Origin: Candidatus Uhrbacteria bacterium
Lineage (GTDB): Bacteria; Patescibacteriota; Patescibacteriia; 2-12-FULL-60-25
Direction of reading: 5' to 3'
DNA: 64,000 nucleotides
NCBI GenBank assembly: GCA_021413945.1
Contig: JAIOPK010000006.1
Span: 186,001-250,000, forward strand
Both the position numbers and the translations under genes were made by a program. The notes beneath the pieces are model-generated. The model was not told the DNA's origin. It saw nothing but the letters and a program-made list of their open reading frames with translations, and made no database searches. Each line of letters opens with the position of its first letter. Position 1 is the first letter of the stretch. Of the stretch, positions 2,153 through 47,901 are shown one piece after another.

Positions 2153-2167
2153 TTTCTTAACTTGTTT

Positions 2168-2584
2168 ATGGATCTGATCAAACCGTTGTTGAGTTTCTCG
2201 TATTGGTTCGGTAACGGGGTGATCCCGTTTCTTCCGTGGGTAGGCCGAGGCATCATGATTTTCATGAGCGGACTTATTCTCGTTGGCATCGCGATTAAGA
2301 TCTATCTCAAATTACAGAAAGGCATGGACAAGCATGTTCGACATGTTTGGAAGCGTGTGGCGGCTTTATGCGCCACGATGGGCCTTGTCGGACTTGTCTT
2401 GTACTGGTTTTACTACGAAGGGATTCCGGTGCTCTCGATGCGTTTTTGGTATTTGGTTTGGCTCGGTATTGCCGGATGGTGGATGTATGATATTTGGACT
2501 GAGTATCGCAAGACGGTGAAATCCCAAGTCGTAGACAAAGATCGGGCGAATTACGAGAAGTGGCTGCCGAAGCCTAAACACTAG
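2168..2584 (+). CDS. Hypothetical membrane protein
   Basis: About 138-aa ORF with several hydrophobic segments. Confidence 0.6.
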   Translation: MDLIKPLLSFSYWFGNGVIPFLPWVGRGIMIFMSGLILVGIAIKIYLKLQKGMDKHVRHVWKRVAALCATMGLVGLVLYWFYYEGIPVLSMRFWYLVWLGIAGWWMYDIWTEYRKTVKSQVVDKDRANYEKWLPKPKH

Positions 2585-2586
2585 AG

Positions 2587-2695
2587 GCGGGTGCGGGCAA
2601 TACAAAAAGTCTCCTGCGGAACTCGTCGTCGATATCTTGTACTACAAGGTCGACTCAGACAGTCCTCGGAGACTTTTTGTATTGCCCGCACCCGC
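2587..2695. repeat. Palindromic structured element, copy 1 (28-bp perfect inverted arms around a ~53-nt core)
   Basis: Arm 2587-2614 GCGGGTGCGGGCAATACAAAAAGTCTCC is the exact reverse complement of 2668-2695. The core is nearly identical to that at 46445-46497. Confidence 0.95.
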
Positions 2696-2731: not shown

Positions 2732-3088
2732 ATGGATTATCGGAAAATGCGCGGGCAGAGCGGGGAGTCGATTGCGTTGGCGTATTTGGAAATACGCGGA
2801 TTTCGTCTCGTGGAACGTAATTGGAATTGTCGATTAGGGGAGATCGATCTTATCGTCGAGCGCGGAGGGGAGACGCGTTTTATTGAGGTAAAACTTCGGC
2901 GAACGACGGAGTTTGGGTATCCGGAAACTTCGATTACCCCCACAAAATTGAGGCATTTAAGCCGTGCTATCGAGTGCTGGATGAATACGCAGAGAAAACC
3001 GCCCTTGCGTTATCAAGCCGATGCTATCGCTATTTTTGCGCCTTTGGGACAGGAGCCGGCTATCGAGTGGATTGAGGCAATCTTGTAG
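2732..3088 (+). CDS. yraN: YraN/UPF0102 family endonuclease-like protein
   Basis: GESIALAYLEIRGFRLVERNWNCRLGEIDLIVERGGETRFIEVKLRR matches the YraN pattern (GE.DL...FVEVK.R). Start moved to 2732 because the ORF-track N-terminus translates the palindromic element. Confidence 0.85.
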   Translation: MDYRKMRGQSGESIALAYLEIRGFRLVERNWNCRLGEIDLIVERGGETRFIEVKLRRTTEFGYPETSITPTKLRHLSRAIECWMNTQRKPPLRYQADAIAIFAPLGQEPAIEWIEAIL

Positions 3089-3186: not shown

Positions 3187-4362
3187 ATGACGATTGTCAT
3201 GATCGGCCAAAAAGGCTTGCCGGCCCATTCCGGCGGCATCGAACGCCATGTAGAAATACTGGCGCGCGGTTTGGTGTCTCGCGGGAATCGCGTGATCGTT
3301 TTTGGACGTTCTTGGTATGTCGGCGGAGGCCGTCCGCCGGCCGGAGTTGAACAAGTGATTACACCGTCTATTCGCACCAAGCATTTGGATGCGATTACGC
3401 ATGGTGTTTCTTCTTTGTTCCGTGCTCGCGATTTTTCACCTAATATTATCCACTTGCATGGCACGGGTATTGCCTTGCTTACGCCGCTTGCGCGCCTCAT
3501 GCACCCAAAAGCCAAGGTTATCGTCACCTTTCACTGTCAGGACTACGTTCTGTCCAAGTGGGGATGGTTTGCCAAGATTGCCTTTCGTGCCGGAGAATGG
3601 TTGGCCTGTCAGGCCAGCCACCGTACGATTGCCGTTTCGGAAACGTTGGCGCGTTATTGTCTCGATACCTATGGTACGCAGACGACGTATGTTTCCCATC
3701 CGATTCCGGAGCCAAACCCGATTACGGATGCGGGAGCCGTACAGGCTCACGGTCTGACGCCGGAGCGCTACTTCTTGTTTGTTGGACGTTTGATTCCGGA
3801 CAAGAAAGCGCATGTTCTTGTTGCGGCTTATGAAAAGGCGCGCCTCATCCGCCCCGACTTGTTTGCGGACCGACCGCTTGTGCTCGTTGGCGGAGCTTCT
3901 TGGACCGACCGATATGCTTCCTGGTTGTGTAATCAGGCCGCACGCGTTCCGGGTGTGATCATGCTCGGTGAAAAGAGCGGACGTGAACTTGAAGCGTTGC
4001 AGGCTCACGCGATGACCCATGTGTTTCCGACCGCGAGTGAAGGCTTGTCTTTTGCTCTCATCGAAGCTTGTCAGTATCGCCGTCCGGTTATCGCTACGGA
4101 AATTCCCGGTAACCTTGAAGGTACGGGCGGACATATGCGTCGTGTTGCTCCGAACGATGTCGATGCATTGACGGATGCTTTGATCGATCTCGCATCACAA
4201 TCTTCCACACAGCGATTGGAGATGGCTTCTCGTGCGCATGCCTATGTGACGCGCGTTCATCATGTTGAAGACCGTTTGGACGATCTGGTCCGCGTCTATC
4301 AAACGACGTTGAACGGCCGCGCCGAGCTCGTCACATTCCCGGCATTGGCGACAACTCATTAA
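3187..4362 (+). CDS. Glycosyltransferase family 4 (DUF1972-like N-terminus)
   Basis: MTIVMIGQKGLPAHSGGIERHVEILARGL; C-terminal FPTASEGLSFALIEACQYRRPVIATEIPGNLE. Confidence 0.85.
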   Translation: MTIVMIGQKGLPAHSGGIERHVEILARGLVSRGNRVIVFGRSWYVGGGRPPAGVEQVITPSIRTKHLDAITHGVSSLFRARDFSPNIIHLHGTGIALLTPLARLMHPKAKVIVTFHCQDYVLSKWGWFAKIAFRAGEWLACQASHRTIAVSETLARYCLDTYGTQTTYVSHPIPEPNPITDAGAVQAHGLTPERYFLFVGRLIPDKKAHVLVAAYEKARLIRPDLFADRPLVLVGGASWTDRYASWLCNQAARVPGVIMLGEKSGRELEALQAHAMTHVFPTASEGLSFALIEACQYRRPVIATEIPGNLEGTGGHMRRVAPNDVDALTDALIDLASQSSTQRLEMASRAHAYVTRVHHVEDRLDDLVRVYQTTLNGRAELVTFPALATTH

Positions 4363-4397
4363 ACAAAAATCTCGCCCCTAGGGCGAGATTTTTGTTT
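4361..4397. terminator. Bidirectional intrinsic terminator, 17-bp perfect stem with 3-nt loop
   Basis: AAACAAAAATCTCGCCC-CTA-GGGCGAGATTTTTGTTT between convergent genes. The minus-strand stop codon sits in the loop. Confidence 0.95.
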
Positions 4398-4677
4398 CCG
4401 GAGTTCGAGGCGAATATTTGAGATTGCGCATGCGCCATTGATCGATCCATTGACCGATGCCTTGCTCATCGCGCTTGCGTCGGAGCTTGGCTTGTCCTTG
4501 AGACCAAGCTACGAGCGATGGGAATGAAATCTTGTAGCGGTTACGGACGACGATGTAGCGGAGTTCTTGGGCGGTGATTGCGCGTCGGATTGTTCTAGGG
4601 TTTACGCCAAATAACCGCGCCGCCTCACTGACCGTGACTCGGACCAGCTGCTCCTTGTTTTGGGTTAGTTCAGACAT
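4378..4677 (-). CDS. Helix-turn-helix (MerR/excisionase-like) DNA-binding protein
   Basis: VTVSEAARLFGVNPRTIRRAITAQELRYIVVRNRYKISFPSLVAW. Confidence 0.75.
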   Translation of the reverse strand: MSELTQNKEQLVRVTVSEAARLFGVNPRTIRRAITAQELRYIVVRNRYKISFPSLVAWSQGQAKLRRKRDEQGIGQWIDQWRMRNLKYSPRTPETKISP

Positions 4678-44653: not shown

Positions 44654-46417
44654 ATGATCCGGATCGCCATTATGGGCACAGGGATGGTGGGAGGTGCCCT
44701 CGACCGCTTTTTCCGACTGTACGGTACGGTTCCGGGCCTTTACGACCCTCCAAAAGGATTGACGGATACCTCGGTTTTGGCCACGGCAGACGTCATTTTT
44801 GTTGCCGTACCGACGCCGTACTACCTCGATGGCAGCGGTTTTGACGAGTCGTATTTGCGGGCGGCGATCGAGGTGATTCCGGTTGCCGGGAAGACGATCG
44901 TTCTGAAGTCGACGATTTTGCCCGGGACGACGGAACGGATGCAGGAGGATTATCCTCAGCATCGGTTTTTATTTAATCCGGAATTTTTGACCGAGACGAC
45001 GGCGGATCGTGACATGCAGTTTCCGAATCGCCAAATTGTCGGCTATACGGCGGAGAGTCGGAAAGATGCGGAGATGGTGATGGGGATTCTTCCCCGTGCT
45101 CCCTTTGAGAATATCGTTCCGTCACGTACGGCGGAGATGGTGAAATATTTTGGGAACGCGTTCTATGCGCTCAAAGTCGCGTATGCGAACCAGATGTACG
45201 ATCTTTGTGAAAAAATCGGCGTTGATTATGACTTGGTGAAGGAATGCGCCAAGGCCGAGCCTTGGATGGGAACGCATCACTGGGAAATTTTTCACAAGGG
45301 CTATCGCGGTTACGGGGGTAAGTGTCTGCCAAAGGACACGAGAGCGATTGTTCAGCTGGGCGATCGGGTCGGCGTCGATTTGTCGACGCTTAGGCATGCG
45401 GAAGAATATAATAATGCGCTTGGACTTGCGCAGGGGATTGATATCCATTGGGAGGAAGGATCGCCTAAGAAGGAATCGACGTCGCCGACGTTTCTGAAGA
45501 AGAAGCGCTATCTCGTTACCGGAGGCGCGGGATTTATCGGCTCGAACTTGGTCGACGCGTTAATAGCGGCGGGGCATGACGTGCGCGTGATTGATAACTT
45601 ATCGACAGGGAAGCGCGAGCGCGTGCATCCGACGGCGGAATTTATTCTTGCCGATTTTACCGATCTCGAGCAAATTCGCCCGTACTTTGAAGGAATGGAC
45701 GGCGTGTTCCATGTCGGCGCGTTGCCGCGTATCCCGTTTTCCATCGAGCATCCGATTCCGGCTGCGGAAGCGAATGTGATGGGGACGTTGAATGTCTTTG
45801 TTGCGGCGCGAGACGCCAAGGTGAAGCGTGTTGTGTACAGCGCCTCTTCGTCGGCATATGGCTCGCAGGAACAATTACCGCTGCGTCCCGACATGCCGGC
45901 GAATCCGTTGAACCCGTATGCGCTCCACAAATACATGGGGGAGAAGATCGCGGAGCAGTTTCATCGTTTTTACGATATGGAGACCGTGTCGCTACGCTAT
46001 TTCAATGTGTATGGTCCGCGTATGGCCGATGAGGGTGCGTACGTGACGGTTATTTCGCATTACATGCGCCAGAAAAAAGCTGGACAGCCGATTGTTATTC
46101 ATGGCGATGGCGAGCAGTCGCGTGATTTCACGCATGTGTCCGATGTCGTCCGGGCAAATATGTTGGCGATGGAGTCGAGCTCGGCCGGCAAAGGAGAGGT
46201 GGTGAATGTGGGAGCCGGCGAACGGCACTCGATCAACAAGATCGCGGATATCTTTGGAGGGCCGCGTACGTACGTCGAAGGACGCAAAGGCGAGGCACGG
46301 CACACGCAAGCGGATATTACAAAAACGCGAGAGTTGATTGGCTGGGAGCCGCGCATCAAATTCGACGACGGTTTGCGACAGCTGCTGCGAGATGAGGGGA
46401 TCGAGCCGGCGATGTAG
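44654..46417 (+). CDS. Fusion: truncated UDP-sugar 6-dehydrogenase-like + extended SDR epimerase
   Basis: N-terminal IAIMGTGMVGGALDRFF...LFNPEFLTETTADRD...GYGGKCLPKDTRAIVQ; linker SPKKESTSPTFLKKK; C-terminal RYLVTGGAGFIGSNLVDALIAAGHDVRVIDNLSTGK...YALHKYMGEKIAEQF. Confidence 0.9.
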   Translation: MIRIAIMGTGMVGGALDRFFRLYGTVPGLYDPPKGLTDTSVLATADVIFVAVPTPYYLDGSGFDESYLRAAIEVIPVAGKTIVLKSTILPGTTERMQEDYPQHRFLFNPEFLTETTADRDMQFPNRQIVGYTAESRKDAEMVMGILPRAPFENIVPSRTAEMVKYFGNAFYALKVAYANQMYDLCEKIGVDYDLVKECAKAEPWMGTHHWEIFHKGYRGYGGKCLPKDTRAIVQLGDRVGVDLSTLRHAEEYNNALGLAQGIDIHWEEGSPKKESTSPTFLKKKRYLVTGGAGFIGSNLVDALIAAGHDVRVIDNLSTGKRERVHPTAEFILADFTDLEQIRPYFEGMDGVFHVGALPRIPFSIEHPIPAAEANVMGTLNVFVAARDAKVKRVVYSASSSAYGSQEQLPLRPDMPANPLNPYALHKYMGEKIAEQFHRFYDMETVSLRYFNVYGPRMADEGAYVTVISHYMRQKKAGQPIVIHGDGEQSRDFTHVSDVVRANMLAMESSSAGKGEVVNVGAGERHSINKIADIFGGPRTYVEGRKGEARHTQADITKTRELIGWEPRIKFDDGLRQLLRDEGIEPAM

Positions 46418-46419
46418 TC

Positions 46420-46522
46420 GGATCCCGTATTGCAAAAACACTCCTGCGGAACTCGTCGTCGATATCTTGTTTTTCAAGGTCGACTCAGACAGTCCTCGGA
46501 GTGTTTTTGCAATACGGGATCC
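46420..46522. repeat. Palindromic structured element, copy 2 (25-bp perfect inverted arms, conserved core)
   Basis: Arm 46420-46444 GGATCCCGTATTGCAAAAACACTCC is the exact reverse complement of 46498-46522. Segment 46441-46501 differs from 2611-2671 only at 3 loop bases. Confidence 0.95.
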
Positions 46523-46527
46523 TCCGT

Positions 46528-47901
46528 TTATGTTCCCTGGCGGCGAAGCACGATACCGACCGTACGGAGAAGAATTAGCGCATCGATGAAGAAGGAGCGG
46601 TGCTTAATATAGTACAAATCGTATTGGAGTTTTTTCAGGTTGTCCTCGAGGCTTGCCGTCGGTGTCAGGAACATCACTTGAGCCCAACCGGTTAATCCCG
46701 GACGCGTGAGGTGCCGTAATGCATAATAAGGCATGCGCTCGATGAGCGGGGCGACGAATTCCGGGCGCTCGGGGCGCGGGCCGATGAGGGAGAGATCGCC
46801 GACCAATACGTTCCAGATTTGGGGGAGCTCGTCGATGCGGAGGCGGCGCATTAATCGGCCAAAGGCAAAGAGGCGCGGATCGGTTTTGGCATTTGTGGTA
46901 AATTGCGCGCCATTTTTTTCCGCATCGAGGTGCATGGTGCGGAATTTGAAAATCTTGAATGTTTTTCCGTTTTTACCGACGCGGAGCTGGGAATAGATGA
47001 CGGGCCCGGGCGAAGATAATTTTGTGGCGATTGCGACAAACGGGAAGAGGAGAATCGTGATGATGCCAAACGGGATGGCGAGGATCACGTCGGAAATACG
47101 TTTCGCCGATTCGTACCAAGCTTTGTTGCCCTCGTTCAGGTGGTGCAGGAACCAGCTCTCCGTGACGTACGAGAGGGGGATTCTTCCGGTGGCGGCTTCC
47201 TCGATTTCCGCACGATCGAGGATTTGGACGGAGTTGAAGAGCGAGTTGTAGAGATGGCGCGAGAGCTCCGGCTGGGATTCCGGACGGACGCCGAGGACGA
47301 CAGAAGTAATACGTTCGCGAATCACTACGTTTTGATAGTCAGAAAGCGGGATCCAGGGGATTTCATTGTGCGGATAGGTTTCGCCGCTCGTGGAGATGAC
47401 GGCGACCAGCTTCATGTTCAGGGCGCTTTCACGCAGGAGAGCGTCGACCTTGCGCATTTCTTCCGCGGGTCCGACAAACAGGATGCGGCCGCTGGAAAAA
47501 TAGGATATGAGCAATCGAGCGGCGAGGAGGCGCCATGCGTAGACGAGGAGCAGGGACAAGCTGAAAAAGAGGAAGAGAATTGTGCGCGGCGTAAGACCAA
47601 AAAATGGGAGCAGGTAGAAAAAACCGGCGGCAATCGCCAAGTTAGCGATCATACCTTCCAAAAATGTTCGGAACAATCGAACCGGCTCACGGACGAGCAT
47701 CAAGTTGTAAAGTCCGACGATGTAGAAACAGACCACCCACAACATAATGACAAACGTGAACGGAGTGACATTCACCGCCCAGACATTCAGGTTGATTTCC
47801 GCGTTTCTGATCGCGAGCGCCAGAAAGAGGGCTAACTCAAACATGGCGAGGTCGCCGATGACCAAGAGGAGGCTTTTTAGGCGTTGTCCATTGCGTAACA
47901 T
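46528..47901 (-). CDS. Undecaprenyl-phosphate sugar phosphotransferase (WcaJ/WbaP-like)
   Basis: KRISDVILAIPFGIITILLFPFVAIATKLSSPGPVIYSQLRVGKNGKTFKIFKFRTMHLDAE...RRLRIDELPQIWNVLVGDLSLIGPRPERPEF. Confidence 0.9.
   Translation of the reverse strand: MLRNGQRLKSLLLVIGDLAMFELALFLALAIRNAEINLNVWAVNVTPFTFVIMLWVVCFYIVGLYNLMLVREPVRLFRTFLEGMIANLAIAAGFFYLLPFFGLTPRTILFLFFSLSLLLVYAWRLLAARLLISYFSSGRILFVGPAEEMRKVDALLRESALNMKLVAVISTSGETYPHNEIPWIPLSDYQNVVIRERITSVVLGVRPESQPELSRHLYNSLFNSVQILDRAEIEEAATGRIPLSYVTESWFLHHLNEGNKAWYESAKRISDVILAIPFGIITILLFPFVAIATKLSSPGPVIYSQLRVGKNGKTFKIFKFRTMHLDAEKNGAQFTTNAKTDPRLFAFGRLMRRLRIDELPQIWNVLVGDLSLIGPRPERPEFVAPLIERMPYYALRHLTRPGLTGWAQVMFLTPTASLEDNLKKLQYDLYYIKHRSFFIDALILLRTVGIVLRRQGT

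Follow-up and report, generated by a model that had tools for sequence, protein, structure and literature searches.

The closest published architecture to the hairpin element described here is that of the tagged palindromes, notably TIR elements, which carry a GGGGWSAS tag and adjoin Y1 (TIRYT) transposases, and CGTC-tagged REPs, which occur in several phyla without a dedicated transposase and combine a CGTC tag with stems of 8-9 bp and loops of 4-5 nt (PMC3733652). Membership of our element breaks down at two points, the enzyme and a stem common to the copies. It resembles the TIR elements in a possible G-rich foot tag, often GGGG(T) here, and in having long inverted repeats dispersed away from any gene, but no Y1 gene lies near any module examined; like the CGTC REPs it is a REP-like repeat that occurs in several phyla and lacks a dedicated transposase, but it has none of their stem length, loop size or tag. 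REP/BIME sequences are likewise short, imperfect palindromes of intergenic DNA with many copies in the chromosome, and inverted pairs in Proteobacteria and a possible 5' tag extend that likeness. However a REP family with its RAYT (TnpA-REP) shares its stem, whereas here stem sequence is unrelated between copies, the stem is about 27 bp and of nearly fixed length, the apex is conserved, there is no RAYT and one module is common to many phyla. Likeness to attC sites and CALIN consists in an imperfect hairpin, folding of the bottom strand and a combination of variable and conserved parts, but the roles are swapped (variable foot and conserved apex here), there are no arrays, and identity with attC was rejected as no R boxes are found at the outer ends, which are variable.

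A long-standing puzzle of hairpin evolution is how perfect stems change their sequence without mismatch intermediates. Template switching in replication homogenises the arms of inverted repeats and inverts the spacer between them (PMC8604942), and it creates and maintains perfect stems (PMC8794818). Quasipalindromes corrected in this way resemble our element in arms homogenised by copying and in spacer inversion (PMC8604942, PMC8794818), but they are ordinary hairpins undergoing a mutation process, whereas here one conserved spacer recurs in dozens of hairpins; with so many natural replicates the template-switching answer becomes directly testable.

The window analysed (64,000 nt) belongs to a genome of 1.05 Mb in 23 contigs, referred to as G000; the genomes used are metagenome assemblies. 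The initial annotation had described a palindrome with perfect 28-bp arms around a 53-nt core and a second copy at 46420-46522, with apical segments (2611-2671 and 46441-46501) identical at 58 of 61 positions (95%), all of which we reproduced. The 61-nt apical pattern matched twice in the window and never in 100 shuffles. The two copies and the genes beside them are arranged as follows.

2162 to 2584, plus strand: gene left of copy 1, 140 aa, no Pfam match, its stop codon 2 nt ahead of the left arm
2587 to 2614, plus strand: left arm of copy 1, 28 nt, variable, 100% complementary to 2668-2695
2615 to 2625, plus strand: conserved module of copy 1, 5' strand, TGCGGAACTCG, invariant in 10/10 copies except alignment positions 40 and 43 nearby, conserved across phyla
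2626 to 2653, plus strand: variable inner stem-loop (P2) of copy 1, covarying pairs including 2626-2653, minus strand the better folder
2654 to 2667, plus strand: conserved module of copy 1, 3' strand, CTCAGACAGTCCTC(G), conserved in the 10-copy alignment and across phyla
2668 to 2695, plus strand: right arm of copy 1, 28 nt, variable, 100% complementary to the left arm
2732 to 3088, plus strand: gene right of copy 1, UPF0102 / YraN family (PF02021, E 1.4e-23)
44654 to 46417, plus strand: gene left of copy 2, UDP-glucose/GDP-mannose dehydrogenase fused to NAD-dependent epimerase domains, its stop codon 2 nt ahead of the left arm
46420 to 46444, plus strand: left arm of copy 2, 25 nt, variable, 100% complementary to 46498-46522
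46445 to 46497, plus strand: core of copy 2 (conserved module and inner stem-loop), 53 nt between the arms
46498 to 46522, plus strand: right arm of copy 2, 25 nt, variable, 100% complementary to the left arm
46528 to 47901, minus strand: gene right of copy 2, convergent, bacterial sugar transferase (PF02397)

An ordinary long terminator-like hairpin at 4353-4405 (3-nt loop, 25-bp arms, 88%) illustrates that module-free long stems are present in the window too.

The earlier observation of a repeated hairpin is correct but understated its extent. G000 contains 10 copies of the core, 8 of them on one contig and all in the same orientation there with 2 on another contig; an eleventh match of 18 nt was dismissed as chance. 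The description of arms that differ and yet are self-complementary, made for the two window copies, holds for all 10, each with its own near-perfectly complementary pair. RNAalifold on these ten copies gave 37 pairs, 25 of them with compensatory (double) changes. Pair cells of the model were paired in 97.3% of cases compared with 70.1% in shuffles, where none of 500 reached the observed value, and double-changed pair cells numbered 95 compared with 27; tested against slid partners besides shuffles the covariation is overwhelming. It supports an inner stem formed by G2625-C2654, T2626-A2653 (A-T in one copy and C-G in two), C2627-G2652 and G2628-C2651, and this register replaces the one first proposed (GTCGA/TCGAC, 2628-2632/2650-2654), which is not conserved. 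An absence of further copies or of covariation, either of which the initial annotation had raised against the element, is contradicted by the ten copies, by its presence in 19/97 genomes and by the 0/500 shuffles, and an assembly artefact is disfavoured by the different flanks of the ten copies and the copies in other genomes. Chance origin was excluded by window shuffles, covariation shuffles and the reversed module pattern (no match in any of 16 genomes).

A covariance model built from the ten copies was used to search 97 genomes of the lineage, G000 included, and found the element in 19 of them, spread over several families of the class, with 0 copies in two congeners of G000. Wrong-strand matches to the model score up to 49 bits from the arms alone, and the strand of each copy was therefore assigned from the module. 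Inspection of these matches reveals one conserved module, TGCGGAACTCG ... CTCARACAGTCCTCG, flanking a variable apical stem-loop, and the exact module TGCGGAACTCG(stem-loop)CTCARACAGTCCTCG is found in at least 120 stretches of GTDB genomes from many phyla. Among the matches listed are Patescibacteria, including one record named Uhrbacteria and another Falkowbacteria, as well as Beta- and Gammaproteobacteria, Nitrospira, Lachnospiraceae, Coriobacteriia, Omnitrophica, a spirochaete and Bacteroidales. Long perfect variable arms also occur beyond Patescibacteria, for example in a spirochaete and a proteobacterium (L057, L126, L162). Phage records and E. coli gave no module match and plasmids gave weak, partial matches only. 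One exact module was present among 2.9 million IMG/VR viral contigs (L170 9042-9080). No Rfam family scored above its gathering threshold, and a permissive threshold returned microRNA-precursor models only, by hairpin shape. The hairpin element has apparently not been named before; text searches for the module on both strands in part of the literature returned unrelated primers and viral genes only, a weak check that leaves a prior description possible.

The fate of individual copies could be followed between G015 and G031, two species of the same genus whose shared regions align at about 77%. At slot 1217396 (G015) / 114784 (G031) the core is shared and the arms are unrelated, each pair being complementary. 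At a tandem pair (G015 923696 and 923856, G031 461863 and 461781) slot and core are again shared and the arms unrelated, with complementarity inside every copy except G031 461863, whose arms are degenerate, and at slot 690005/702259 (G015/G031) divergence is limited to the outer arm, the inner one being conserved. Seventeen G015 copies have alignable surroundings, and for these G031 has a counterpart in 9 cases, a decayed remnant in 3 and nothing in 5. The G031 site matching G015 1211772 is missing core and both arms, which indicates that the hairpin is gained or lost as a whole; with this empty site, and with arms that differ at shared slots, insertion of the core into pre-existing terminators is unsupported and was rejected. 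A second core type, B (TGCGGGGCTCG...CTCGAACACATCCTCG), is found in G015 and G031 only, and several slots hold the first type (A) in one species and B in the other. G000, G031 and G015 all have a copy in the slot immediately upstream of gyrB, with the module flipped relative to gyrB between G000 and G031. Geometry is kept throughout, the distance from arm base to module being 25-29 nt in 36 of 42 copies, and the arms of 38 copies comprise 825 Watson-Crick pairs, 39 mismatched pairs and 2 gaps. We also considered the arms as guide-like copies of genes elsewhere. The search covered 0.36-0.44 Mb per genome, and its matches, none longer than 16 nt, were taken as chance. At some slots another dispersed palindrome family, CATTCCCGC..GCGGGAATCCAGG, adjoins or replaces the element (L208 10740-10775, L285 13990-14070, L237 4990-5030).

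Any explanation must meet a fixed apex, length and orientation, a free arm sequence, and few unpaired positions despite complete turnover. The reading that we prefer, tentatively and with a little less than an even chance of being right, is a chromosomal non-autonomous REP-like DNA hairpin with an apex module bound by a putative protein and arms kept by template switching together with selection. The module TGCGGAACTCG / CTCARACAGTCCTCG round its small stem-loop would probably be what the putative protein recognises, the stem would have to be about 27 bp and of near-fixed length with its sequence immaterial, and the functional form would be single-stranded DNA folded during replication rather than RNA. 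One arm may be re-copied from the other by replication template switching, such that a mutation is written across and the pair drifts together; copying of this kind would give perfect arms without a slow passage through mismatches, and it offers a possible route for flipping the core to one orientation. We infer template switching from the pattern of the copies, no single event having been caught. It would leave the conservation of module and length unexplained, for which selection via the putative binding protein is proposed, and the same trans-acting protein may have dispersed the module; as regards mobility, the comparison of orthologous sites showed presence and absence only. The initial annotation had offered selection on a hairpin or hairpin-templated copying, and both are well supported by the covariation, the arms rewritten at shared slots and the fixed geometry. 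Of its options for the core the non-autonomous mobile element comes closest, protein binding is plausible on the pattern of conservation, and a structured RNA is less favoured. Our broader proposal, which we regard as possible but doubtful, is that these hairpins form an unnamed, replication-oriented class in many phyla in which apex and stem length would be inherited, the stem rewritten in place by hairpin-templated copying and the core (types A and B) flipped or exchanged within a persisting slot.

Of 55 copies from nine genomes of this lineage, 54 carry the module on the strand that is locally richer in G (one-sided binomial 1.6e-15 assuming independence, which orthologous and neighbouring copies do not have). 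The G-rich strand is as a general rule the leading strand, and this is assumed here. Flanking genes explain the orientation less well than GC skew. Genes were called here by a simple codon-usage scorer; the one preceding the module was co-oriented with it in 25 of 33 contexts, and among the 25 copies between co-oriented genes 6 oppose the genes, 5 of these following the skew. In other phyla both orientations and inverted pairs occur, a complete Nitrospirales chromosome having 7 and 7, so the orientation rule is claimed for this lineage only. A constant orientation with respect to strand composition suggests a replication-linked DNA element, whose orientation may follow the replication fork through strand-specific insertion or re-inversion, or through counter-selection of the other orientation. 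If the rule holds, the element could serve as a marker of the replication strand in uncultured bacteria and as a handle on a putative hairpin-binding protein common to many phyla. The single copy against local skew (G015:C3:821607, L237 3607-3644) is of type B and forms a well-formed hairpin. In G031:C1 (L206-L225) and G015:C3 (L226-L243) a strong GC skew (0.07 to 0.15) is confined to about 40-45% of the chromosome, most of the remainder being near zero with no clear region of opposite sign, and nearly all copies are in the strong half.

The minus strand, opposite to the module, is the one that folds better, as judged from wobble pairs, C(GNA)G triloops and folding energies. Read on the module (plus) strand, the 39 arm mismatches comprise 7 G-T, 23 A-C and 9 others; the 23 A-C become wobbles when the minus strand is read. 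With a further 5 A-C and 1 G-T from the inner stems, the totals are 28 wobble pairs on the minus strand compared with 8 on the plus strand. When the 48 apical triloops are read on the minus strand, 31 have the sequence GNA; read on the plus strand, none does. The minus strand is the more stable in 70 modules compared with 16 under DNA parameters and in 101 compared with 22 under RNA parameters. This sits in conflict with the foot tag, since GGGG is found within 12 nt before the left arm in 21/42 copies as against 5/42 after the right arm, on a module strand that is itself G-rich, and both such a tag and lagging-strand insertion of the IS200 kind would implicate the plus strand. A GNA triloop with a C-G closing pair is characteristic of DNA mini-hairpins of great stability, and the loop types frequent in RNA, GNRA and UNCG, show no enrichment. 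Loop types thus favour DNA over RNA without being decisive, and the even stronger preference of RNA parameters for the minus strand has to be counted against the DNA hairpin.

A structured, protein-bound noncoding RNA transcribed from the minus strand would also fit the wobble pairs and the lower energy of that strand, and the conserved internal loop with covarying stems, as is typical of RNA. In such an RNA the conserved internal loop would have a long variable stem on one side and a variable apical stem on the other, and only pairing would be selected. We consider this RNA unlikely, as its transcription would oppose neighbouring genes in 19 of 33 contexts and would always come from the G-poor strand, no sigma-70-like promoter is found at either window copy, there is no Rfam match and the loops are often C(GNA)G triloops with no GNRA/UNCG excess.

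The lack of an enzyme counts against the REP-like hairpin that we prefer. No Y1 transposase (Y1_Tnp) was detected in G000, G008, G015 or G018, nor in 8 of 20 module-bearing genomes of other phyla, and at the loci examined no module adjoins a Y1 gene and no module pair flanks one, so that a partnership with a Y1 transposase, RAYT or TIRYT was rejected for want of any association. An RT-dependent element (retron, DGR, group II intron) was rejected with reverse transcriptase missing from all five carriers checked (G000, G015, G018, G019, G051). The approximately 120 loci listed have no recurrent protein family within 3 kb of the module, and the cargo between inverted pairs in Gallionella-like genomes has no gene in common. 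These searches also bear on the idea that the element is a transposon end of classical type (IS200/IS605, RAYT or TIRYT) that has become dispersed, cut at the G-tag by a Y1 transposase whose gene has been lost in most carriers. The similarity of the foot tag to the GGGGWSAS of TIR elements, the module strand on the presumed lagging-strand template as in IS200-like insertion and the inverted pairs round single genes in Proteobacteria all speak for it, but with no Y1 gene near any module, none in many carriers and stems that are not common to the copies we judge it improbable.

Transcription termination in both directions, as suggested initially, is plausible within G000, where an A-tract on the left and a T-tract on the right accompany 9 of 10 copies and the left arm often starts a few nt after a stop codon. 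It cannot be the general function since in relatives the tracts are often T on the left and A on the right, or missing (18 with T, 10 with A, 1 with both and 25 with none; n=54), and copies also lie upstream of gyrB between divergent genes. A terminator scan found none at copy 1, although the 53-nt loop exceeds the limits of the scan, and neither the module nor a fixed orientation is needed for termination; a bidirectional intrinsic terminator at gene ends with an unusually conserved loop is therefore quite improbable as an account of the element.

A vertically inherited, polar host site for chromosome organisation or replication, leading-strand oriented with KOPS- or Ter-like logic, would suit the 54/55 orientation, the 12 of 17 slots at which the second of two species has a counterpart or a remnant, and an occurrence that is rare on plasmids and never on phages, but is very unlikely given how patchily the element is distributed (two congeners of G000 have 0 copies) and the two orientations elsewhere, such as the 7 and 7 of the Nitrospirales chromosome.

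The hairpin also occurs in larger arrangements. A longer, interrupted hairpin has the module as its apex in Rhodocyclaceae-like genomes, where inverted pairs are found inside composite palindromes of about 600 bp (L119 3640-4180, L058 6760-7290, L121 180-720) with outer hairpins TACTTTCTTTTGC..GCAAAAGAAAGTA. Elsewhere inverted module pairs lie about 0.9-1.3 kb apart with one gene between them, different each time (L084, L129, L074, L079, L122). The Rhodocyclaceae-like composites also contain another internal-loop module, CCCTGCGCTACTCG, flanking the main one.
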